Positions 39,979 through 60,231 of a DNA stretch of 64,000 bases are shown here, piece by piece. Under the pieces are notes generated by a model. The model was not told the origin of the DNA. It saw only the letters and a list, made by a program, of their open reading frames with translations, and made no database searches. A program made the translations under genes and the position numbers. Location: positions 1 through 64,000 of the forward strand of contig NZ_AAWS01000038.1 in the NCBI RefSeq assembly GCF_000169175.1, given 5' to 3'. Position 1 is the first letter of the stretch. Each line of letters starts with the position of its first letter. Source of the stretch: Microscilla marina ATCC 23134. GTDB taxonomy: Bacteria; Bacteroidota; Bacteroidia; Cytophagales; Microscillaceae.

Positions 39979-42900
39979 TTACAACTTGATGCCCATGAGT
40001 AAAATATCGTCACGTTGTTCAGTATCTACCATAAACTCATCCAATGCTTGCTCAAGCAATTGTTGTTGTTCAACCAAGGGAAGGGTACTATTTTGGGCAA
40101 GTAGTTGTCGCAAACGTCTGCCACTAAACTTTTTGCGTTGCGCATTATTTTGGTCAGCAAAACCATCAGAGCTAAGGTATAACACGGTTCCTTTGTCCAG
40201 TAATAATTGTTGACTGGTAATGGTTCTGCCTTCTACATAATCAATGCCTATAGAGACATTGCTACCCTTGACAACCTGGAGCTGGTCATTTTCGGGGGGA
40301 GCATACCATAGTGGGCGCTTGGCTCCAGCAAAGTGTACAGTTACTTGGTGGTTGTTAGAGGGCGTGATATTTATCATTGCCACATCCATGCCGTGTTGTT
40401 TGCCGGTTTGTTCTTGTTTGAGCGCGTTGCGTAGTTCTTGGCGCAGGGTTTCCAATATTTGGACAGGGTTGGTTTTTTGTTGGGCATAAATAATGTCATT
40501 GAGCAATGCATAGCCAATCAAACTCATAAATGCTCCTGGTACTCCGTGCCCAGTACAGTCAATGGCAGCTGCTATAGTAACATTGCCCACCTGCTCGATA
40601 TAATAAAAATCACCCGATACCACATCTCGTGGACGGAAAAGCACAAAGTGCTCTCCAATTAACGCCTGTAGACGATCGGCAAAAGGCAAAATCGCTGCCT
40701 GAATAGTTTCAGCTGATTTAATACTTTGGGTAATATGGTAGTTTTGTTTATTAAGTGCCTTATTTGACATCTCTATGGCATCACGTTGCGCCATAATTTC
40801 TTCACTTTGTTGAAACAGTTCTTCATTTTGAGCGGTGATTTCATTACTCTTTTGCTGTAAGGCTTCATTTTGAGCAGTGATTTCTTCACTTTTTTGTTGT
40901 AACACTTCGTGTTGTGCTTCTATCTTTTCTTTTTGTTTTACTACCTCTTGGGTACGCTCGACTACTTTTTGCTCCAGCATTGTTTTTTGTTGGCGCAAAC
41001 GCATCGTATATATTTTGATTCCCCCATATAACACAAGCAAGGCTGCTGCTACATATAATACCCTTGCCCACCAGGTACGGTACCAAGGCGGCAATACTTT
41101 AAAACTATAAGTGGCCACTACGCTTTCTACGCCATAAATATTGCGTGATTTTACCCTAAATACATAATTGCCTTCCGGTAAGTTGGTATATTCTTTCTGG
41201 GTTTTACTGGTCCACTTAGACCAATCGCTTTTATAGCCTGCCAATTGATAACTATACTGGGTTTTGTCGGTAAAACTAAAATACAAGGCAGCATAGTCAA
41301 AGGTGAGTGAGTTGTGGGTATAAGGCAATGTGGGGGCAGTAGCAGTTTGATAGCCCGCATACAATACCGAATCGTTATTGGTAACTACCTTGCGTATATT
41401 TACTTTAAAACTTTGTTGTATGTTTGACCGACGGTTTCCATCATAGCGTACTAAACCCTCATCAGTCGAAATCCAAAAAATACCATTAGGTTCTATATTT
41501 ACCCCTGTCACCTCTTTTTCGTACAATGCTTTTAGCGTCAGGGTATCTCGTATAAAGACACTGCCTTTTTTCTTACAAACCAAGTTAGTTTTTGATTGCG
41601 CGTCCTGTGCCAACCAATAGGTTTGGGTAGAATCGTTTTCGGCAAACGCAACCGCTTGTTTTTTGTGGTAGCCCAAGTGTTGGTTGATGCCATAATCGCG
41701 TACAAAACAACGCTTGTTGGCATCAAACGAGTAAATGCCTTTTGGGGTAGTATAGTACAAATCTCCATTATAAGAGACGATATTTAGCTTTTGAGTGGGC
41801 AGGCCAGCCGTTGAGTCAAACAGGGTTACCTTATTACCCTCTACCAACCCTGCACCTTTGTAGTGGGTAACAAACCAAAGCTGCTGTTTTTTATCTTGCC
41901 TCATCTGCAATGGTGGATCTTTCAAACCTTCCATGAGTGCCTGTTCTACTTGCCACTTACCTTGCTTGTATACCCTGGTACCTATCCCGTTCAATAGAGC
42001 TAAATAAGCCTTGGTAGGTTGTTGTCGGTCAGGCAAAAACTTAACGACCACTTGTTCTTCAAATAATAGCTGAGCTATATTGCCTTTGATGGCAAACAAG
42101 CCTTGTGAACTCCCCACCAACAATTGTTGTTGTCCAGTGTTGGGATGATGATGAATTGTAAAATTAATGCTTTGCCCTTTGATTCCCTTGATCCTGGTAA
42201 AACCCTCTGGGTCTAACCGAAAAACCCCTACTGTAGTAGACACATACAGCTTTTGCTGAAATCGACATGAAGCAATAACGGCTCCTTCCAATCCAGTAGA
42301 TGCGTCAAATTGTAACATTGGAACATCATACATCACCTTGGCAATGCCATTGTCAGTGCCCACCCATAGGTTTTGAGTACCCTTTTGGTGGTAAATGCTC
42401 CAGATGGTATTGTTACACAAACCTCTATCTCGGTTAATCACACTTAGTAACTTTCCCGCTTTATCCATCAGTAACACTCCATGGGTTCGGGTACCAAACG
42501 CAAACCAACCATTGGGCAACGCGGTGCTACAGTAAATAAGGTACTTTTTGTGGTTGATCTCTGAGTCAAACTTGGTAAATGTAGCAGAGCGCTTGTCATA
42601 CAACCAAAAGCCCGTATTTGCCTCTTGAATCAACACCTTTTGCCCTGGGTAAGGCAACATAGAAAATACCTGCCCTTTCCCTATTTTTTCAGACCCTCTG
42701 ATAGTGTTTAGAACTTCCCCTTTTAACACATCAATACCCACATTCGTATGTGGCTGGTACCAAGTACCGTTTATGTTAAATCCTGGAAAAAGCGTGGTTT
42801 TTTCAGGAAACTCATGTCTTTTTACAAATTTGTTATTCTGGTAAGAGTACACTTTGGTCATAGTAATAAAATGTACCCAGCCTTGAGCAGCCACTGTGGT

Positions 42901-43581: not shown

Positions 43582-46500
43582 TTATAGTTTTATGCCTATC
43601 AACAAAATATCGTCTCTTTGTTCGGTGCCTTGCATAAACTCATCTAAGGCTTGTTCAAGTAACGATTGTTGCTGAGGTAAGGCAAGTGATTTGTTTTGGG
43701 CTAACAGTGTTTTAAGCGACCTTGTCCCAAACTTTTTTCGGTCTTGATTGTTTTGGTCAGCAAAGCCGTCAGAACTTAGGTACAGTATCGAACCTTTTTC
43801 TAACAATAGTTGCTGGCTGGTAATTGCTCTGCCTTCCACGTAGTCAATCCCTATAGATACATTACTGCCTTTTATTACCTGTATTTTATCGTCTTCAGGG
43901 GTAGTATACCAAAGTGGGCGTTTGGCTCCGGCAAAATGTACTTGTATACTGGTGTTGTTTTGGGGTTCTATAGTAACCATTGCCACATCCATGCCGTGTT
44001 GTTTGCCGGTTTGTTCTTGTTTGAGCGCATTGCGTAGTTCTTGACGCAGGGTTTCTAATATTTGGGCGGGGTTGGTTTTTTGTTGGGCATAAATAATGTC
44101 ATTGAGCAGTGCATAACCAATTAGACTCATAAAAGCTCCTGGCACGCCGTGCCCAGTACAGTCAATGGCTGCCGCTATAGTAACATTGCCTACCTGTTCT
44201 ATATAATAAAAATCACCCGATACTACATCTCGCGGACGAAAAATCACAAAGTGCTCTCCGATCAAAGCCTGTAGCCGATCGGCAAATGGCAAGATAGCCG
44301 CCTGAATAGTCTCTGCCGATTTAATACTTTGGGTAATCTGGTAATTACGTTCATTGAGCGTTTTATGAGACTCTTCTATGGCGTCACGTTGCGCCATAAT
44401 TTCTTCACTTTGTTGCTGTAGTTCTTCGCTTTGCTGTAAAAGCTCCTTGTTTTGTTCGTAAATCTCTTCTTTTTGCTTCACCACTTCCTGAGTACGCAGG
44501 CTTACTTTGTGCTCCAGTACCACCTTTTGCTTGTGCAAGCGGTTGGTATATAGTTTTACCCCACCAAATAAGCTCAAGGCAAACAATACTGCAAACAATA
44601 CATACGCCCACCAGGTACGGTGCCAAGGGGGAAGTATTGTAAACTGATAAGTAGCTACGTGACTTTCTATGCCATAGAGATTACGTGCTTTTATCTTAAA
44701 TGTGTAAGTACCTTCGTCTAGGTTGGTGTACTCTTTTTGGGTTTTACTAGTCCATTTTGCCCAATGTTTGTCATAGCCTACCAATTGATAGCTATATTCA
44801 TTTTTATCAGTAGAGTTAAAATACAAAGCAGCATAGTCAAAGGTAAGCGAGTTGTTGGTATAGAGGAGTGTAGGTGGTTCAGTGATTTTATTTCCCGCAA
44901 AGAGCACCGAGTCTTGCCCGATTTGCACCTTACGCAGCAGTACTTTAAATTGCTGTTGAATATTGAGTGTGTTACGTGCATTGTACTTTACCAGCCCTTC
45001 GTTGGTAGAAATCCAATACACCCCATTGGGGTCAATGTCAATCGTGTTGATTTTTTTGCTGTATATCGGCTTCAGTATCAGGCTGTCAGGGTTATAGCCT
45101 TTGGTTGTTTTATAATAAGGCACCCAGCGTTTGGAGCGGGCATTTTGGGCGATCCAATAAGTTTGGGTAGTATCGCACTCTACTTGTGTAGTTTTAGGGT
45201 TGTTCAGTAGTTTATCAAAGGTGAGGTCTGGCTTAAAACGACGGCTTGCCTCATCAAAAGTGTATATGCCATCCTGGGCACAATAATACAACTTGTTTTG
45301 GTACATGAGCATGTTTACCATTTTGGGCGGAAGCCCCGCCAGCGAATCAAACAAGGTGACCTGGTTGTGCTCTAATAAGCCTACTCCCTTATAACGAGTA
45401 GCAAGCCAGATTTTCCCTTGGGCGCTCTGCATGATTTGCCAGGGAGGGTCTACCACTCCTTTTAATCGACGTTTTTCTGTTTCCCATCGTCCATTCTGAT
45501 ATAACCAAGTGCCCAGACCATTTAAAAAACCTACATACAATCGCTTGGGGTTATTTTTATCTACACAAAAACTATAAGCGCTTTGTTCTGGTATCACTTG
45601 TTTAAATACAGAGTCCTGTAGGGTGTATATTCCTCGGCTATTGGCAACCAACAAGCGTTGTTCGGTGGAGTTAGGTACTTGGTAGGTGAAAAAATCCCAG
45701 GTTTGACTACTCAAGCCTTTCACTTGTTTAAACTGACCTTTGTCTAACAGAAAAGCCCCCACACTGGTAGCTACATAGGTTTTACCTTTAAAATGGTGTA
45801 CATCCTCTACCGACCCCTCTAGTCCGTGACTAGCATCGTACAGTTCCCAGGGCAAGCCTATAGTTATTCTGGTAAGGCCTTTATCAGTGCCTACCCATAA
45901 GTTTTGAGTGCCTGTTTGGTAGTATACTTCCCAAACAGTATTGTCGATTAACCCTTGCGACTGATCAATTATACTCACGACCTGCCCCTGTTGGTCAATA
46001 ATGACTAAACCTTTAGTACGGGTGCCCAAGGCAAACTGTCCGTTGGGCAAAGCAGTACCACTGTATACTTCGTCGCGACTAAATATTTTGCTTAAGTGGC
46101 GGGCAAATGGAGCTACCTGACCAGATTTGAGGTCATACAACCAAAACTCCGCTAAAGCATCTACTATCAATATTTTGTTGCCAGGGTAAGGCATCATGGT
46201 ATATACATGACCCCTGTTGGCTTTCAAGGTCCCCTTAATCACCTGTAGAGAGTCTGCTTTTAATCGAGCAATTCCTTGTTGGCTTTGGGGTTGCCAAAGT
46301 TGATCGTATACCCCAAAGCTCAAGTGAAAAAAATGTTTGGGGCTGGTTTTGTATATCTTATATAGTTGGTTGTTTTGATAACAAAATATTTGGGTCAAGG
46401 TTACAAAGTACACTTTGTCTTGGGCAATGATTGTTTTCCATACATCGCTAAAGTTTCGTTGGTTTTTGGGAACAGTAGGCAGCAGAGATACAAACTTTAA

Positions 46501-47362: not shown

Positions 47363-50300
47363 TTATAATTTTATGCCCATCAGCAAAATATCGTCACGTT
47401 GTTCGGTACCTGCCATAAACTCTTTCAATACTTTCTCAAGGCAATGCCTTTGTTTGGTAAGTGGTAAATGACTGGTGCTCGCGAGTAGCTTTATGAGTTG
47501 GACTGAGCCAAACTTTTGCCTACAGTCATTATTTTGGTCAGCAAAGCCGTCTGATCCCAGGTAAAGTTTTGTTCCTGTGGCGAGCAATAGCTCATGTGTG
47601 GCAATAGTACGCTTGTGCTCATAGTTAAACCCGACCGATATTTTACTTCCACTTATTTGTTGTACCTCTGGGTGGTTGGGTTCAATATACCAAAGGGGAC
47701 GCCGTGCTCCGGCAAAAAGTACTTTTACTTGCGCTTCAGGGAGGTGTTCCAAGGTCACCATAGCTACATCCATGCCATTATGCCTGCCCGTTTTTTCTTG
47801 TTTTAATGCTACTTTTAGTTCTACTCTGAGGGTCTCCAATATGTTGCCAGGATTGGTTTTTTGCTGTACATTCACAATATCATTGAGCAAGGTATACCCA
47901 ATCAGGCTCATAAATGCCCCTGGTACCCCGTGCCCGGTACAGTCAATGGCAGCCACAATGGTTTTGTTGCCTACGGTTTCTAAATAGTAAAAGTCACCTG
48001 ATACAATATCGCGAGGCATAAAAATAACAAAGTGTTCGTGTAGGGCCTGTTGCAGGTCTTCTATCAGAGGCAATATGGCCGACTGAATGGTTTCGGCTGA
48101 TTTGATGCTCTGCTTCATATGTAGATTTTTTAGGTTCAAGGCATCACGGGCTTCTTCTATAGCATCTCGTTGACTGGCAATTTCTTCGCTTTGTTGCCAT
48201 AACTCCTCGTTTTGTGCCTGAATTTCTTCTTTTTGCTTTAAAATCTCCCTTGTACGTCTTTGTACCTTTTTCTCTAGCATTACTTTTTGTCGTTGCAAAC
48301 GCGCCGTGTACCAGCGAATACTGCCTGCTATGATCACGAGCAATAGCAATACATATACTACAAACGCCCACCAGGTGCGATACCAGGGGGGAAGTATAAT
48401 AAAGCTATAGGTGGCAATGTTGCTCTCGATACCGTAAAGGTTGCGGGATTTTACCCGAAAAGTATATTTGCCCTCATTGAGGTTGGTATACCCTTTTTTA
48501 TTGTCACTACTCCATTCCGACCACTCTTTGTCATAGCCTACCAATTGGTAACTGTATTGGTTTTTGTGGGCAAAGCCAAAATATAAGGCAGCGTAGGCAA
48601 AAGTAAGTGAGTTATGACTATAGGATAGGGTAGGAGAGGGGGGGGGTTGGTAGCCTGCATATAGAAGCGAGTCGGGGTGGGCTTGCACCCGACGAATAAG
48701 TGTGGTGAATTTCTTTTGCAACAGAAAAGGTGCTTTGGCATCATACCTGAAAAAACCTTCGTCAGACGACAACCAAAATATTCCATTAGTTTCTACCTCT
48801 ACCCGATCAAGCATTTTGTCATAAATGGGTTTAAACACTGATGTATCTGCCCGGTAGTGCTGTCCTCGTTTGACATAAGGTACATACTGTTTTTTAGGAA
48901 GCTGTTTAGCAATACAATAAGCTTGGGTAGAGTCAAACGATAAAAAACTGAGGGGTGTATCACCCAGTGGTTTACTTAAAACATGTGATTTATGAAAGCG
49001 TCTTTTAGCCTCATCAAAAACATATTCCCCTTTTTGGGTAAGATGATAGAGTTGGCCACCTTGAAACACTATGTTTACTCTGCCAGGTGGTAACCCAGCA
49101 GTAGAATCAAACATAGTGATTTTTTTGCCTTCCAACAAGCCTACCCCCTTGTAGCGTGTGCTTACCCAAACCCGGTTTTGCTTGTCTTGCAACACCTGCC
49201 GAACCGGCTCAGTGAGCCCTTCGTAGCGTTCTACTTCGATCTGCCATTGGCGATTTTTATAGACAACTGACCCCAATCCGTCTATAAAACCTATGTACAT
49301 TCGGCGTGGGTTAGTATGGTCGGTATGCGTCCGGAACACGCTTTTTTCGGGTAAAATCAATTGAGCAATAGTGTCTTTTAGTGTATATATGCCTAGGTTG
49401 TTGCTTATCATTAAATGTTCCTCTTTCACATTAGGGGCTTGGTATGACCAAAGCCCCCAAGTTTGTCGTTTGATGCCTTTTATACGTTGAAAACGATTGT
49501 TTTTGAGGCGAAATACTCCCACACCGCTCGATACATACAAAGTATTCTTAAAACGAAGTATATCATCTATAGAACCCTCAAGCCCATGTATATCATCAAA
49601 CTGTTCCAGAGGTGAGCTTACGTCTATTCGGGCAATGCCTTGGTCGGTGCCCACCCATAGGTTTTGGGTGTTTGGTTCATAATAGAGACTCCACACGGTA
49701 TTGTCGGGCAAACCTTTAGTTTTATCAATCAAGTCTATTACTTTACCTTGTCTGTTCATAATGATCACCCCTCGCAATCTGGAGCCAAATGCAAATAAAC
49801 CATTGGGTAGATTCACTCCGCAGTAAATGGCTTGTTTTTCCCAAGTGTTGTCTAAGTCAGAACGAAAACGTTTTGCTTGCTGTGTATTTGTGTCATACAA
49901 CCAAAACTTGGTAGTGGCTTCGCAAAGTAATATTTTTTGCCCCGGATAGGGTAACATAGCAAATACACGTGATTCTCCTATGTTAGCAGCCCCAGCAATG
50001 GTTTTAAGCGAGTCAGCGTCATAGGTGGTTATACCATTGGCTTGGCGAGGTTGGTAAAGCATACCAGCAATATTAAAGCTATAATGAAAGCGGTAGGGTT
50101 TGGGCGAGTGGTATATGCGCAGTAATTTTTTGTTTTGGAAACAATACAAATGTGGAAAAGTAATAAAGTTGACCTTATTTTTTACAATACTCACTCGCCA
50201 TACATCGCCAAAGTCACGACTGTTTTTGGGGAGTTCAGGCAGCAACGACTGATATTGTAAAAAACCTCTTGAGTCGGGTTTGAGGTAACCAAAGTCTCCT

Positions 50301-55800: not shown

Positions 55801-56043
55801 AAAAGCAATGTGTTTGCCATCGGAGCTCCATATAGGGTTGGCATCGTACCCCTGGTGAATCGTGAGGCGGCGGGCAACTCCACCATTAGCAGCCATTACC
55901 CATATATCTCCCTGAAACGAAAACGCTACTTGATTGCCGTCCGGACTAATGGCGGGCTGAGTAGCAAATATAGGTTGAGTTTGTGCCTGAATAACACTGG
56001 CTAACCCCCACAGGAAGCAAGCTACTAGGTAAAATTTTCTCAT
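52843..56043 (-). CDS. Tricorn-like S41 family protease with N-terminal propeller
   Basis: 1066 residues. The signal peptide (ending SVIQAQ) indicates export to the periplasm. The first 640 residues carry PD40/TolB-type propeller repeats (ISPDGNQVAFSFQGDIWVM, PIWSSDGKHIAFSSNR and similar). A linker, a PDZ domain (about 750-835: LNEGDVITKVNGQEV) and a tail-specific protease domain (about 840-1030) follow. The putative catalytic His is in LNASHMGLYG (about 739) and the nucleophilic Ser in NENSYSNAEIF (about 965), the same arrangement as archaeal tricorn. It probably breaks down peptides or misfolded proteins in the envelope. It lies between two signalling groups; a functional tie to them is not shown. 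Confidence 0.93.
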   Translation of the reverse strand: MRKFYLVACFLWGLASVIQAQTQPIFATQPAISPDGNQVAFSFQGDIWVMAANGGVARRLTIHQGYDANPIWSSDGKHIAFSSNRASNYDVFTIPANGGATKRLTYHSSGDQATCWTAQNEVLFTSRVRAYRQIAYEREIHKVSAEGGTPQRMLDAQGYMPTQSPNGKLIAFVRGTCGVVREAYQGPANRNIWIYNNETKQYTQLTNDPSNEFQPIWSDDNALYYISAKSGKYNIYQQKLNTDGTANGNARQITRYTDDGIRYFGVSRNNQLVFERQISLYTMNANEGKAKKLTIQATNDYRFDQVTHQTYRNGVADYKVAPNGKYVAVEIRGEIFIKPIAKDKRKAMNLSDHAFRDESPEWLNDSTLVFISDRNGQRDLYLVRSIDKKQSNLYKTLKTKVIQLTQTKAEEFAPTLSPNGKKIAYRRGRGELVVASISATGKLSNEKVLVKGWATPGGVAWSPDSRWLSYSLTNLNFNREVYIQAANNSQPGVNVSMHPRGDYGAVWSPDGSKLAFMSNRINDYDVWFVWLNRADWEKSKSDHEEGGYYDDPDKKKSKPKKNALVNIDFENIHHRVARVTSLPGNEGGLAIGNKGQTFYFTATNPTARHHRYDLYQVKWDGSQTKMLTKRGKNPRRLLLSPKGKKLHFLASGVLQQMLLKAKKTTPLPHEAKMVIDHHQERIQMFEEGWRALQAGFYDPNFHGQNFVALRKKYKPWALAASTTQDFRMIYNRMLGQLNASHMGLYGPNPETIQREQTGLLGAEVVPVTTGVKIVHVIRHAPADRTRSKLNEGDVITKVNGQEVNDKVNFYSLLTNTHNERVMLTVQGKGGTREVIIRPIKSLSNLLYEEWISDQKALVKKYSGGRLGYIHIRGMNMPSFERFERELMASGYGKEGIVIDVRFNGGGWTTDYLMAVLNVRQHAYTIPRGAVKSLQKEHKKYRNYYPFSERLPLSSWVKPSVALCNENSYSNAEIFSHAYKHLGIGKLVGKPTFGAVISTGSRRLIDGSRVRMPFRAWYVKATEKNMELGPAVPDFVLDNVPDNRAKKEDAQLKKAVEVLLKQIDTKK

Positions 56044-56309
56044 GTTATATATGTAAAAGGTTTGGTGTATAAGTAGTCATAAGTACTGGTATGTCAATGC
56101 ATACCCAAGACTACAAGTAAAATTACATTGTTTATAATAAGTCTGTTATACTTGTTATGTTGTTAAAACTACAACTTATGATTTGTATAACCTGAGGCAA
56201 GTAGCGGGTGTTTAAAGGGGGAACATGGGTGAGGGATCATTTATTATTTAAATCGTCTTTTTCAGCTTCTCAGGAATAAATGATGGAAAGGTCACCTCCA
56301 AACTGAAGC

Positions 56310-57701
56310 CTATTTTTGACTCTCCAAAACAGGTGCTTTGCGTGGCAGGGTAAATTTAAAAGTAGTGCCTTCGCCTTGAGTACTTTCTGCCCATATTTTC
56401 CCCTGGTTCTTCTCTACAAACTCCTGGCAAAGCAACAACCCCAACCCTGTACCTTTTTCGTCGTCAGTGCCCTCAGTAGTATAAGTATGGGTACTGTCAA
56501 ACAAATAGGGCAATACATCAGGTGGTATACCTACACCATTGTCTTGAATGGCCACCTCAACATAGCCTTTATCCATTGCTTGAGCAGTTACCCTCACCTC
56601 ACCATCTTGTTGGGTAAACTTAATAGCATTAGCACTCAGGTTTCTGATCACCAATGCTACCATGTGTGCATCAGCAAACACCTTTGTTTCGGCAGGAACA
56701 TCGTTATACAATTCAATATTTTTATTTTGTGTAGCAGTCAGTACCTTAAGGGTATCTGCGGTTATATCGTGTAAATTAAGTAATTCGGGAGTAAACTTTA
56801 CCTTTTCCATTTGCATCATAGCCCATTGCAAAATGTTTTCCATGAGGTAGCGGGTGGCTTGCATTTTATCGCGTAATTCCAGAGTAAGCACCTGAAGTTC
56901 TTCAGGAGTAATGGCGCCAGCTCCCAATAAGGTAAGCGTGCCTTGTAGTGTGTTGAGTGGACTTTTGAGGTCGTGCGAAATGATAGACAACAACTTGTCT
57001 TTGAAATGGCTCAGGTCAGAAAGTTCTGCTTGCTGTAAGCGTATGGCTTCGTTTTTTTGCTTAATCTCATGATTCTTGGCAATCAACTCTGATCTTTGGT
57101 TTTTCAACAAGCGGTTGACCTTTCGGCGTTTGATATTTACTACAATGTAGGCACGGATCATAAAAAAAGTAATGACTCCTATAATACCTGCATTGATCGT
57201 AAAGAAAAATTTCTGGTTGATGTTGCTCTGTAATATTTGTGGGGTGCGTACCTGTACCTGATGATCAATAAAAGCACTGGCTACCAGTAATAGTATAAAC
57301 CAGACGATCCAGTAATTGGCGCGCTCTATATGAGTAAATGATAAAAGCCCAAACAGTGGTATAAACGACCACAACATCACCGCACCTGTAGCCATGTACC
57401 CACCCAATGTCCACTGGTACACAAAAGGCAGCGTCATGCTGGTAAGGATTTGAATAAAACGTACTATCTTAAAGTTTTGCGAAGCGTACAAGTACCACAT
57501 GCTAAGCAATGTAGTTACCATAAAGCCCGCAGGGATAATAGCTACATTGTATAAACCGTATGCAATGCTCAAGCTTACCCATAGCGAAGCCCCCAACATA
57601 GTAATGCTAGTAAATATGTGAAAAGCATATTTAAAACTACGAGGGAACTGCCGAAGAAAATCTTCGTCATTAAATTTATTGACAAATTGTTGAAATAGCA
57701 T
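56310..57701 (-). CDS. Histidine kinase with a six-helix membrane sensor
   Basis: 463 residues. Six hydrophobic segments (about 28-195) form a membrane sensor, with QWTLGGYMATGAVMLWS in the middle. A coiled coil (about 200-235) joins it to a HisKA domain (LLSIISHDLKSPLNTLQG, phospho-His about residue 243) and a HATPase domain with N box (NLSANAIKFT), G1 (DNGVGIP) and G2 (GTGLGLLLCQEF). It should autophosphorylate and pass phosphate to a response regulator, none of which is adjacent. The membrane sensor is clearly related to that of the next gene (57936-59477), which ends in a phosphatase instead. Confidence 0.92.
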   Translation of the reverse strand: MLFQQFVNKFNDEDFLRQFPRSFKYAFHIFTSITMLGASLWVSLSIAYGLYNVAIIPAGFMVTTLLSMWYLYASQNFKIVRFIQILTSMTLPFVYQWTLGGYMATGAVMLWSFIPLFGLLSFTHIERANYWIVWFILLLVASAFIDHQVQVRTPQILQSNINQKFFFTINAGIIGVITFFMIRAYIVVNIKRRKVNRLLKNQRSELIAKNHEIKQKNEAIRLQQAELSDLSHFKDKLLSIISHDLKSPLNTLQGTLTLLGAGAITPEELQVLTLELRDKMQATRYLMENILQWAMMQMEKVKFTPELLNLHDITADTLKVLTATQNKNIELYNDVPAETKVFADAHMVALVIRNLSANAIKFTQQDGEVRVTAQAMDKGYVEVAIQDNGVGIPPDVLPYLFDSTHTYTTEGTDDEKGTGLGLLLCQEFVEKNQGKIWAESTQGEGTTFKFTLPRKAPVLESQK

Positions 57702-57935
57702 TCAGTGCTTTTGATGAAGTGTTGGGTAAAGAAAAACTGCCATGTTTTTTGTTAATTTTTAAGTAGTGCGTAAGAAGCATTCAAACAAAAATACAAATGA
57801 TTTGTAAAATATTCTAAGAGTTGAAAAACTTGTTTTTCCTTTTGATTGATATTTTTATGCGTGGTTGTTTGGTATAGGGTACAGAAGTGCGCTTCGACGA
57901 AGTTTTTGCCTGGCATCATTCCACCCAAAAAACGC

Positions 57936-59477
57936 TCAAACCTTAACTCCTACCACCAACACATCATCTGTTTGGTAGTTGTCCTTTTGCCAGGCTCTGA
58001 GCTCTTGTTTGAGCAATTGTTTTTGTTCGGTCAGCGGCAACGAACTTATGCTGAGCAATAATTCCCTAAAACGCCTTTTCATATATTTTTTATCGTTTCC
58101 ACCACCAAACTGGTCTTGAAACCCATCAGAAAAAATATAAAATACATCGCCTGGCTGAGTAGCAATGTAAGTATTCTCAAAACTCTTACCATATTTGTAT
58201 TGCCCACTGCCAATAGGAAACTTAGATCCTGATACTTGATGCATGAGGCCGTTTCTTACGTACCAGAGCGGGTTTTTTGCGCCCGAAAAGACCAGTGTAT
58301 GGTCATCTTGGTCGAGCATCATGAGCGACATGTCCATACCATCGTTTAGGCTGGTATTGCTGGTAAGGGCATGTACAATTTTTTTGTCGAGAGCAGTGAG
58401 TATTTTGGCAGGGTCGGTCAGGTGGTGCAGTAGTACAATCTCATCTATAAATACCTTGCCCATTACCGTCATAAAAGCCCCCGGCACCCCATGCCCAGTG
58501 CAGTCAATAGCTGCGATAAGAATTTTTTCGTTTTCAAACCCTTGAAAAACCCTTTGTATACCGTCAAAGGTGCTTATTTCTTGATATATAGGCTTGGCTT
58601 CTGTTTGGGTAAACCAAAAAAAATCACCGCTCACAATATCTTTAGGTTGGTTAAGGACAAACGACTCAGGGAGCACTTGCCGCAAACCTTTAGAAGAAGC
58701 GTGCAAAGCCTTTTGAATGTTTTTGGCATAGGTGATTCCCCCCATCATAGCCACCCGTTTCTGTTCTATTTCAATGGTTTGACGTTGCAGTTCATCATTA
58801 ATGCTTAATATCTCTTCGTTTTGTTGTTCTATCTCAAAGTGGCGCTCCGACAAACCGTGTTTTTGTTGTGCCAGTTGTTGGTTCATAGACTTGGTGTGGC
58901 GGTCACTTTTGATAAAAAACTTGAATAGAAAAAAAGTGATAGAAGCAATCATGCCAATATTAACAGTGAGTAATATTAGTTGTACCTGAGCAGCTTTGAG
59001 GGGAGCAGGAGTAAACTCAACCAAGTAGCCGTCAGCTATTGTTGAGCCTACCAATAATACAATAAACAATACCAGCCAACCATTGCCCTCTTTAGCTTTG
59101 GAGAAAGTAAGTAGTGCAATAAGGGTAAGCACCGACCAAAGCATGACTACTCCAGTGGCGTTGAATCCACCCAACAGCCATTGAAACAAAAAAGGCAATA
59201 ACAAACTAAATAGTACCTGTATAGAACGACACCGTACAAAGTTTTCGCGTTGTAGTAAGTACTGTAGGTTAACAAGGCTTAATGCAATATACCCAAAGGG
59301 AATGATAGAAATCAGGTAAAAACCAAATAAAAGGCATAATATACCCCACATCAAGCCTCCAGTGTTCATCATCAATAAAAAAAAGAAATAGGCTTTTTTA
59401 AAGTCTGCGGGGTATTGGGTAAGAAAAGACGCATTGTTGATTTGCTGGCGTATAAACTGGATAGAAAGCAACGGCAT
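57936..59477 (-). CDS. SpoIIE-type PP2C phosphatase with a six-helix membrane sensor
   Basis: 513 residues. The N-terminal 195 residues are a six-helix membrane sensor with QWLLGGFNATGVVMLWS, matching the neighbouring histidine kinase. A long coiled coil (about 195-260) leads to a SpoIIE phosphatase domain (about 265-513). Its metal-site motifs are DIVSGDFFWF, AIDCTGHGVPGAFM, FSDGFQDQFGG and QTDDVLVVGV. Compared with the propeller-linked phosphatases it has an insertion after DFFWF (EAKPIYQEISTFDG). It is predicted to be an inner-membrane signalling phosphatase acting on a phosphoserine or phosphothreonine protein. The tandem position next to the kinase suggests duplication with a change of output. 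Confidence 0.92.
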   Translation of the reverse strand: MPLLSIQFIRQQINNASFLTQYPADFKKAYFFFLLMMNTGGLMWGILCLLFGFYLISIIPFGYIALSLVNLQYLLQRENFVRCRSIQVLFSLLLPFLFQWLLGGFNATGVVMLWSVLTLIALLTFSKAKEGNGWLVLFIVLLVGSTIADGYLVEFTPAPLKAAQVQLILLTVNIGMIASITFFLFKFFIKSDRHTKSMNQQLAQQKHGLSERHFEIEQQNEEILSINDELQRQTIEIEQKRVAMMGGITYAKNIQKALHASSKGLRQVLPESFVLNQPKDIVSGDFFWFTQTEAKPIYQEISTFDGIQRVFQGFENEKILIAAIDCTGHGVPGAFMTVMGKVFIDEIVLLHHLTDPAKILTALDKKIVHALTSNTSLNDGMDMSLMMLDQDDHTLVFSGAKNPLWYVRNGLMHQVSGSKFPIGSGQYKYGKSFENTYIATQPGDVFYIFSDGFQDQFGGGNDKKYMKRRFRELLLSISSLPLTEQKQLLKQELRAWQKDNYQTDDVLVVGVKV

Positions 59478-59563
59478 GACAATGGTTTTTTATAAAAATA
59501 GGTTGATTTCTATATTGTCACGCAAATATCGTGGAAAAGACAAAGTGAGAGAAGAAGAAAGTT

Positions 59564-59620
59564 AAAAAAAAAAGATTAGCCCCTCTTTTTTCTTGGTACA
59601 TTAGGTAAAAAGCAGGGGCT
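59564..59620 (-). terminator. Terminator after the DUF423 gene
   Basis: On the - strand a 14-bp stem with one mismatch (59607-59620 with 59578-59591) is followed by a run of T opposite the A-run at 59564-59573. Confidence 0.85.
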
Positions 59621-59644
59621 GGTAGCATGCTACTGAGCGTTGGT

Positions 59645-60019
59645 TTATTTAGCGTTCCAAACTGCTAAAAACAAAAATATCCAGCCAACAATAAAGGCAG
59701 TGCCACCCAATGGAGTAATAGCGCCCAACCAACGAATGCCCGTAAGCGAGAGCACATACAGGGTACCTGAAAAAATAACCGTACCTATGATAAATGAATA
59801 TCCCGCATAGGTTAAATATTTGTGGGGCATTTGCAAAATAAGTATGCCTACTATACAAAGTGCCACTGCGTGAAAAAATTGGTAACGTACTCCAGTTTCA
59901 AATACTTCTGTATAGTTGTTTTGTTCTAATACTTTTTTTAAAGCGTGTGCACCAAAAGCACCTATTGCTACCGAAAGCCCGCCAAGTAAGGCGCCAGCCA
60001 TTAAAAAAAACTTATGCAT
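59645..60019 (-). CDS. DUF423 family small membrane protein
   Basis: 124 residues with four membrane helices. The start (MAGALLGGLSVAIGAFGAHALKK), ETGVRYQFFHAVALCIVG and the end, AITPLGGTAFIVGWIFLFLAVW, are the conserved wording of DUF423 proteins, found widely in bacteria without an assigned function. Length and topology are normal. It has its own terminator. A possible promoter lies upstream (TAACTTTG on the - strand at 60079-60072, without a clear -33 element). Confidence 0.92.
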   Translation of the reverse strand: MHKFFLMAGALLGGLSVAIGAFGAHALKKVLEQNNYTEVFETGVRYQFFHAVALCIVGILILQMPHKYLTYAGYSFIIGTVIFSGTLYVLSLTGIRWLGAITPLGGTAFIVGWIFLFLAVWNAK

Positions 60020-60231
60020 AAATATTATTTTAAATCAGCAAAACAATTCAAGACTAATCATTGATTATGAGCAAAGTTATTATAAATTTTGAGAGCTTGA
60101 CGAAGTTTTTTCAAATTGAATTTTAATAGCGCGACAGACCATAAGTTTTAGGTTATATGATAGGGGTATTTTTATTTAAAATGCTTTTATATCACTTACT
60201 ATTTGTAGCGCGCCACTTGTTGCACACAAAT

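Follow-up and report, generated by a model that had tools for sequence, protein, structure and literature searches.

A shared six-helix membrane sensor with exchanged outputs in Microscilla marina and its predicted adenylyl cyclase-like fold

The stretch of DNA analysed here, hereafter the window, comprises positions 1 to 64,000 of contig NZ_AAWS01000038.1 from Microscilla marina ATCC 23134, and it carries two neighbouring genes whose products begin with homologous six-helix membrane sensors and end in different enzymes. A SpoIIE phosphatase gene (57936-59477, minus strand, 513 amino acids) lies upstream of a histidine kinase (HK) gene (56310-57701, minus strand, 463 amino acids), with 234 bp between them. 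The source contig (C38) belongs to a 9.77 Mb genome assembled in 135 contigs. Computational analysis establishes the homology of the two sensors, the exchange of outputs behind them, the conservation of the gene pair, the modular use of the sensor, and a match of its predicted fold to the membrane domains of adenylyl cyclases, human enzymes among them. As a whole, these findings are, in our judgment and with moderate confidence, best explained by a dimeric receptor module that has the adenylyl cyclase membrane fold and whose outputs are exchanged, the HK having arisen through a swap at the coiled coil.

The relationship between the two sensors is evident from a direct BLASTP comparison, in which residues 5-220 of the HK align with residues 7-223 of the SpoIIE protein with 83 of 217 positions identical (38%), one gap, and an E value of 4e-42. 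This similarity spans all six membrane helices and the beginning of the coiled coil that follows transmembrane helix 6 (TM6), and it ends ahead of the HisKA and SpoIIE domains. On the basis of this alignment and of the AlphaFold helices, the sensor of the SpoIIE protein is placed at residues 1-195 (58893..59477, minus strand); that of the HK is placed at residues 1-190 (57132..57701, minus strand) by its 38% identity to the former and by homology searches. Each is followed by a coiled-coil linker. In the SpoIIE protein the linker continues TM6 through approximately residues 196-260 (58698..58892, minus strand), where the helix is modelled to residue 224 and the remainder is assigned by reading, and in the HK it covers approximately residues 191-228 (57018..57131, minus strand), with the alignment reaching residue 220 and the remainder again assigned by reading.

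A first-pass annotation of this DNA had proposed that the two N-termini align along their length, which the BLASTP result bears out, and the two motifs that it quoted as examples, QWTLGGYMATGAVMLWS and QWLLGGFNATGVVMLWS, are both present in the proteins. It had also named the finding that would overturn the proposal, namely a similarity no greater than is typical of any membrane helices. When this was examined, generic helix similarity had to be rejected because of the E value, because of a profile match to the MASE6 domain that reversed and block-shuffled controls fail to reproduce, and because certain residues are retained in nearly all of 64 family members. As to the further first-pass idea that one signal could reach both outputs, identity between the HK and SpoIIE sensors is equal across the two membrane halves (27 of 69 positions in the outer half and 29 of 74 in the inner half), and nothing suggests that the two have kept a particular pocket in common apart from the residues conserved throughout the family.

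The catalytic parts of the two proteins are unrelated to each other. Above the curated Pfam cut-offs, the HK matches HisKA and HATPase_c only, and the phosphatase matches SpoIIE only. The HisKA dimerisation and phospho-acceptor domain occupies residues 234-297 of the kinase (56811..57002, minus strand; PF00512, 1e-06) and the HATPase_c domain residues 344-455 (56337..56672, minus strand; PF02518, 1.6e-27). By sequence reading, the kinase has SHDLKSP, NLSANAIKF, DNGVGIP and GTGLGL, which we take to be its H, N and G boxes and which place it among HisKA kinases. The SpoIIE (PP2C-type) serine phosphatase domain covers residues 317-512 of its protein (57942..58529, minus strand; PF07228, 1.7e-19) and, likewise by reading, carries VSGDF, DCTGHG, DGMDM, SDGFQDQ and TDD, presumably the acidic metal-site motifs expected of a SpoIIE phosphatase.

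Searching the M. marina genome at E up to 10, either with a single sensor or with a profile of five rows, returns five copies of the sensor in both cases: the HK and SpoIIE protein of the window, two SpoIIE fusions on contig C5, and a long multi-PAS SpoIIE protein on contig C11, an orthologue of L038. SpoIIE is therefore the output of four copies and HK of one. The two sensor-SpoIIE genes on C5 (L010 and L012; G000:C5:98983-106056) flank a gene that reads as a putative HMG-CoA reductase, which offers a hint, no more, of an isoprenoid link. A second Microscilla genome has only one of the two C5-type genes (L021) in the stretch analysed.

The sensor is sparsely but widely distributed. Genome counts each include the centre genome and are lower bounds, since most of the searches capped the number of candidates scored per genome. 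With the 5-row profile, the sensor is present in at least 4 of 395 genomes sampled across the phylum. With a 24-row profile, it was found in at least 8 of 57 relatives (one of them as a fragment), in at least 13 of 198 genomes from the phylum of a Leptospiraceae locus, in at least 4 of 398 from the phylum of a gammaproteobacterial locus, and in at least 18 of 188 from the phylum of a myxobacterial-type locus. When genome contigs were scanned for a single peptide pattern, 21 loci were recovered, filed under Bacteroidota, Poribacteria, Desulfobacterales, Myxococcota, Leptospiraceae, one Chloroflexota metagenome-assembled genome (MAG), and others. An in-frame stop lies inside the matched stretch of three loci from the phylum of the Leptospiraceae locus (L069, L070 and L083), which are perhaps decaying copies.

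Sixty-four sensor domains, including those of the window, were assembled into an alignment (A3), and the corresponding 64 member proteins (A5, in which the full-length L038 substitutes for its orthologue L013) were scanned with Pfam. Left out of A3 were same or near-identical sequences (L009, L011, L014-L018, L021, L038, L040, L043, L044, L046, L051-L055, L057, L059-L066, L068 and L069), fragments and stop-containing or broken-looking frames (L036, L050, L070, L083, L085 and L096), and also L084 and the MASE6 protein L058. The first-pass annotation had suggested listing every output to which the sensor is fused, and the list proves to be broad. Kinase outputs are the most common, with HATPase_c in 30 members, HisKA in 28 and Hpt in 2 that are CheA-like (for example L077), followed by class III cyclases (Guanylate_cyc in 14, with a fifteenth recognised by reading), SpoIIE (11), the chemoreceptor signalling domain MCPsignal (3), and the Ser/Thr kinase domain Pkinase (2); Response_reg is found in 11. 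These catalytic classes, which do not overlap as labels were assigned, account for 60 of the 64 proteins. By reading, the remaining four are a PAS-only protein (L028), a sensor-only frame (L037), a kinase truncated where its contig ends (L034), and a cyclase whose frame is disturbed (L108).

Two of these fusion types merit separate mention. In L102 and L103 the sensor precedes a Ser/Thr protein kinase, so that in bacteria both serine kinases and serine phosphatases occur behind it. In L078, L079 and L080, from genomes in the phylum of the Leptospiraceae locus, it is fused to a chemoreceptor signalling domain; chemotaxis of such organisms is perhaps the easiest route to the ligand of the sensor.

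Integral sensors such as MASE1-MASE5, 7TMR-DISM and MHYT are likewise membrane-embedded input modules common to kinases, cyclases and phosphatases, and the sensors of the window have no Pfam match to any of these. Among the members of alignments A1 and A2, Pfam and NCBIfam return single matches only, with scores below what is credible. Over residues 15-230 the SpoIIE protein weakly matches DUF6057 (E 0.029; 13.7 bits, where the cut-off is 29.8), which was judged to be due to chance. Searches of open-access papers found no description of this six-helix sensor family. The first-pass suggestion of a new sensor domain therefore holds insofar as the family lacks a Pfam or NCBIfam name, but the family is not isolated, being a distant relative of MASE6 with a predicted adenylyl cyclase membrane-domain fold.

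Phylogenetic analysis makes clear that outputs have been exchanged behind the sensor. In a tree of 65 sensors (the rows of A3 plus L056, which was used in trees only), 13 label changes are needed over 8 labels, compared to a mean of 31.8 when labels are shuffled, and 11 remain once PAS-only and output-less rows are omitted. The HK sensor of the window and its orthologue nest within a SpoIIE-linked group from Microscillaceae (support 96/90), and the next larger group around this sensor is supported at 99/97 in a 20-row tree. Approximately unbiased (AU) tests on the 20-row tree reject a single clade for the 8 SpoIIE-linked rows (p-AU 1e-135) and likewise for the 12 HK-linked rows (p-AU 1e-133). 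The nesting of the HK sensor among SpoIIE-linked sensors and the rejection of single origins together establish the exchange. Further sister pairs of HK- and SpoIIE-linked sensors are L012/L025 (100/96 in the 65-row tree and 96/93 in the 20-row tree) and L045/L024 (98/98 and 98/97).

How the two genes came to be neighbours is a separate matter. The first-pass annotation had described output exchange after tandem duplication, and of this statement the exchange stands; duplication in tandem is neither supported nor rejected. Under the duplication scenario, a single sensor-SpoIIE gene would have been copied directly and the output then swapped in one copy, which accords with the adjacency of the genes, their common strand, the placement of both sensors in one clade, and an AU test in which forcing the two together is not rejected (p-AU 0.177). 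Free trees instead join the HK sensor to the SpoIIE-linked sensors L020 and L010, apart from its neighbour, albeit weakly (84/48 and 82/46 in the 65-row tree and 80/83 in the 20-row tree). The two sensors are also merely 38% identical, so any duplication behind the pair must be old. On balance, we regard direct tandem duplication as a possibility whose chances fall clearly short of even.

The explanation favoured here for the HK is a swap in which a sensor of SpoIIE lineage would have been placed, with its joint at the coiled coil, onto a kinase core whose type is found behind unrelated sensors at other places in the genome. Its three nearest kinase-core paralogues in the same genome (45-49% identity) have 7TMR-DISM, SBP_bac_3 or TPR domains in front. 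By reading, these paralogues also have a helical linker ahead of HisKA, and for this reason the fusion joint of the window HK is probably the coiled coil. Regarding the phosphatase, most of the sensor-fused SpoIIE parts form one group of 9 rows (100/99) in a tree of SpoIIE domains, and outside this group lie L027 and nine further SpoIIE domains, namely L058 and eight from M. marina. The bootstrap of this tree is not settled, L045 is missing from it, and of the loci L001-L008 it includes only the 5 of 8 that matched the motif pattern used. The grouping fits the view that SpoIIE is the older partner of the sensor in this lineage. The outlying L027 is a SpoIIE fusion on a contig filed under a Thalassovita MAG, and its sensor groups with those of Bacteroidota; its taxonomic placement is possibly a binning error.

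The closest named relative of the sensor is MASE6 (PF20966; cut-off 27.4 bits). Neither window protein, nor any of the 24 members of A2, matches this Pfam family at E up to 1. Matches at this level are seen for 3 of the 64 members of A3, and the score of one of them, the cyclase L098, exceeds the cut-off (29.0 versus 27.4 bits). The relationship becomes apparent when profiles are compared with hhalign, using a profile of 28 MASE6 domains (A4). The A3 profile matches A4 with 94.6% probability (E 6.6e-8) over 165 columns, in register and with a conserved tryptophan and a conserved asparagine aligned, and the smaller A2 matches with 80.4% probability (E 1.3e-5). Eight block-shuffled controls reach at most 16.3%, and reversed profiles give 4.7-9.5%. 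Given a profile match without a cut-off score, the sensor family is best regarded as distantly related to MASE6 and not as a member by the Pfam rule. The two resemble each other in the full-length profile match and in the adenylyl cyclase fold of their AlphaFold models, and they differ in their outputs. Among six MASE6 proteins scanned, five carry GGDEF and one carries PAS with a kinase part, whereas GGDEF is absent from the matches listed for the 64 sensor-family members (25 of 26 Pfam families). The second Microscilla genome holds a MASE6 protein (L058; G395:C316) that scores above the cut-off (32.2 bits), and whose C-terminus reads as SpoIIE and groups with SpoIIE domains.

The AlphaFold model of the N-terminus of the SpoIIE protein (pLDDT 93.5) has six membrane helices, at residues 24-50, 54-77, 80-102, 111-125, 128-155 and 163-224, the last of which continues as a long helix into the linker. 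The adenylyl cyclase membrane-domain fold has six helices with TM6 running into a helical domain, and the predicted structure has this arrangement. When the model was re-aligned with VIA, the top seven rows were all adenylyl cyclases, and the next row had a Z score of 6.7. The model superimposes on Rv1625c with Z 15.2 and 3.7 A over 193 residues (model residues 20-225 on chain residues 41-245) and on AC9 with Z 12.7-14.5. A MASE6 domain modelled from the diguanylate cyclase L110:1501-1998 (AlphaFold pLDDT 94.5) gives Z up to 17.3 against AC9, with 1.9 A over 156 of 166 residues, followed by AC5 (Z 15.5), the diguanylate cyclase ImcA (12.8), and Rv1625c (11.3); the next score is 8.3. The case for the fold rests on four points: the top rows come from one family, a gap separates them from the next row, the model superimposes on Rv1625c in sequence order, and the sensor is fused directly to class III cyclases in 14 of the 64 members (15 by reading).

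Like the membrane domains of Rv1625c/Cya and AC9, the sensor consists of six helices in the same modelled arrangement, is N-terminal to an enzyme, and extends its TM6 into a helical linker, and some family members are themselves joined to class III cyclases. Unlike the adenylyl cyclases, the family has mostly kinases and phosphatases as outputs and no sequence match to them. Mammalian adenylyl cyclases differ additionally in having two six-helix bundles per chain. In the report on the ImcA structure (PMC10904736), no word begins with 'adenyl', and a review (PMC12414865) has no word that begins with 'mase' or 'bacterial'.

Conservation within the family was examined by membrane half on 61 of the 64 rows (L104-L106 excluded), under the assumption of a cytoplasmic N-terminus. 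Eight of the ten most conserved helix positions fall in the outer half (W114, P60, N173, Q99, W44, W100, P95 and L102), and the other two are Q87 and W134. With the same orientation, the conserved residues G103, S/T108 and G109 are located in an outer loop. Several publications bear on what such a domain might do. Mono-unsaturated C18 fatty acids are reported to act through the membrane domain of Rv1625c to inhibit it, and modelling puts the ligand deep in a pocket, its carboxyl group close to the outer surface (PMC12505454). Lipid ligands have been described for the membrane domains of mammalian cyclases (PMC11606603). Outer pockets whose alteration disturbs the cytosolic helical domain have been described, as has a cation-binding outer site in Rv1625c (PMC9433096). 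When the CqsS quorum receptor was put in place of the Rv1625c anchor, a cyclase regulated by CAI-1 resulted, and the question was posed of whether six-helix cyclase anchors are universal receptor modules (PMC4821796). As described in that same source, CqsS-type quorum receptor kinases have six short helices directly before the HK and a lipophilic ligand, and by description they resemble the HK of the window.

Against this background, the shared N-terminus would be a six-helix intramembrane receptor with the adenylyl cyclase membrane-domain fold that acts as a dimer. A ligand, which we infer to be lipophilic, would arrive via the membrane or the periplasmic side and enter a pocket in the helix bundle, and its binding would alter the setting of the paired TM6 helices. 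This change could then pass along the coiled-coil extension into whichever dimeric enzyme comes next. In Microscilla, related inputs may in this manner be directed to serine dephosphorylation by the four SpoIIE copies and to histidine phosphorylation by the neighbouring HK.

Certain results weigh against this explanation. Foldseek itself returns nothing at E 0.001 or better, with adenylyl cyclase rows (AC9) at E 1.6 and 2.8. The VIA procedure merely re-aligns the list supplied by Foldseek, and mostly helical models may reach Z scores of approximately 14 without clear kinship. None of the profiles A1, A2, A3 and A4 detected an adenylyl cyclase of the PDB by sequence at E up to 10; these searches of solved structures yielded three unrelated rows only, with E values of 0.45 or worse. 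Five circularly permuted MASE6 controls gave 67.6-87.9%, in one case above the real value of 80.4% for A2, although circular permutations are probably a poor control, since their high scores likely reflect long blocks that stay intact. Over all helix positions, the bias of conservation towards the outer half is not significant (p 0.26). In the sensor tree, long branches leave some placements unsure, and the SpoIIE-linked sensor of L049 falls among cyclase sensors (87/80), though its SpoIIE part sits in the fusion group.

The failure to find sequence matches to adenylyl cyclases or a confident Foldseek match, together with the fact that six-helix bundles are common, might suggest that the resemblance to adenylyl cyclases and MASE6 is convergence on a simple bundle without kinship. 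We consider this rather unlikely, because the same domain is N-terminal to class III cyclases in 14 of the 64 members by Pfam and in a fifteenth by reading, because the MASE6 profile match is in register, and because of the closeness with which the MASE6 model fits AC9.

Two other readings concern what the domain does. It might respond to the state of the membrane, such as its fluidity, thickness or cation load, rather than to a bound ligand. DesK-like sensors provide a comparison for sensing of this kind. A model that consists of helices with only tiny loops would suit such a role, as would the outer cation-binding site of Rv1625c (PMC9433096). The conserved QW-GG-S/T-G-W near the outer face of TM3 and TM4 suggests a specific site over a thickness sensor, and membrane-state sensing is thus judged to be unlikely. 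Even less probable, in our estimation, is that the domain is a mere anchor that dimerises outputs at the membrane and senses no ligand. The model does lack sizeable loops between its helices, and neither side of the membrane shows significantly higher helix conservation, but polar, aromatic and glycine residues that hardly vary (Q87, Q99, W100, G103, W114 and N173) and fusion to many outputs are typical of sensors. Moreover, the same fold is reported to be a receptor in adenylyl cyclases (PMC12505454; PMC11606603).

If the domain is a receptor with this fold, the implications reach beyond Microscilla. The role of the adenylyl cyclase membrane domain has been unsettled for decades, and lipids have been reported as its ligands only recently. 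With a likelihood that we would place just short of even, the mammalian domain may belong to a general bacterial receptor superfamily that includes both the unnamed sensor family and MASE6, all members of which would read membrane-soluble signals, and the Microscilla pair would be a natural example of related receptors that act on a kinase in one gene and on a phosphatase in the next. The outputs of such a superfamily would comprise HK, CheA-like, SpoIIE, Ser/Thr kinase, chemoreceptor and cyclase proteins, plus the diguanylate cyclases and others found behind MASE6. What goes beyond the first-pass annotation is how many kinds of output the sensor serves and how it connects to MASE6 and to the adenylyl cyclase membrane domain, neither of which our searches of open-access papers showed to be described. 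A bacterial family of the same predicted fold offers simple readouts for ligand finding, namely chemotaxis and phosphorylation, and may reveal where the adenylyl cyclase membrane fold came from. The sensor could also be named as a new domain, and it illustrates the exchange of outputs behind one sensor.

The gene pair is maintained in the second Microscilla genome (L019), with the same order and the same gap length. Between the two genomes, the ratio of nonsynonymous to synonymous substitution rates (dN/dS) is 0.125 for the sensor of the SpoIIE gene and 0.081 for its output; the corresponding values of the kinase gene are 0.068 and 0.060. All four lie within 0.06-0.125, which shows purifying selection on the sensor and on the output of each protein. 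The gap between the genes (57702..57935, minus strand, 234 bp) is 97% identical in L019, despite synonymous divergence (dS) of 0.15-0.31 in the sensors and outputs; the short kinase linker has a dS of 0.045. This gap probably holds the kinase gene's own promoter. It contains TTTGTATTTTTGTTTG (57782..57797, minus strand), identical letters of which are present in the L019 gap, and its TAnnTTTG box resembles what we take to be the consensus of the Bacteroidota -7 element, making this a putative promoter element. No Rfam match was found in the gap at E up to 1, and no sigma-70-like promoter or terminator-like site is listed within it. Over 56000-60200, counts of promoter- and terminator-like sites are the same as in shuffled sequences.

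By sequence reading, the pair is followed downstream by a tricorn-like protease and preceded upstream by a small DUF423-like membrane protein. No response regulator adjoining the pair was seen among the open reading frames of 50-64 kb. Three more large SpoIIE proteins, encoded in frames of approximately 1100 amino acids, are clustered elsewhere in the window (39985-40572, 43588-44175 and 47369-47968, minus strand). Their catalytic domains form one group, in which two are 84% identical and the third is 64% identical. In the whole genome there are at least 151 SpoIIE domain matches versus 6 STAS matches (three of them in frames of 120-131 amino acids), and by this measure the phosphatases far outnumber the classical partner-switch substrates.

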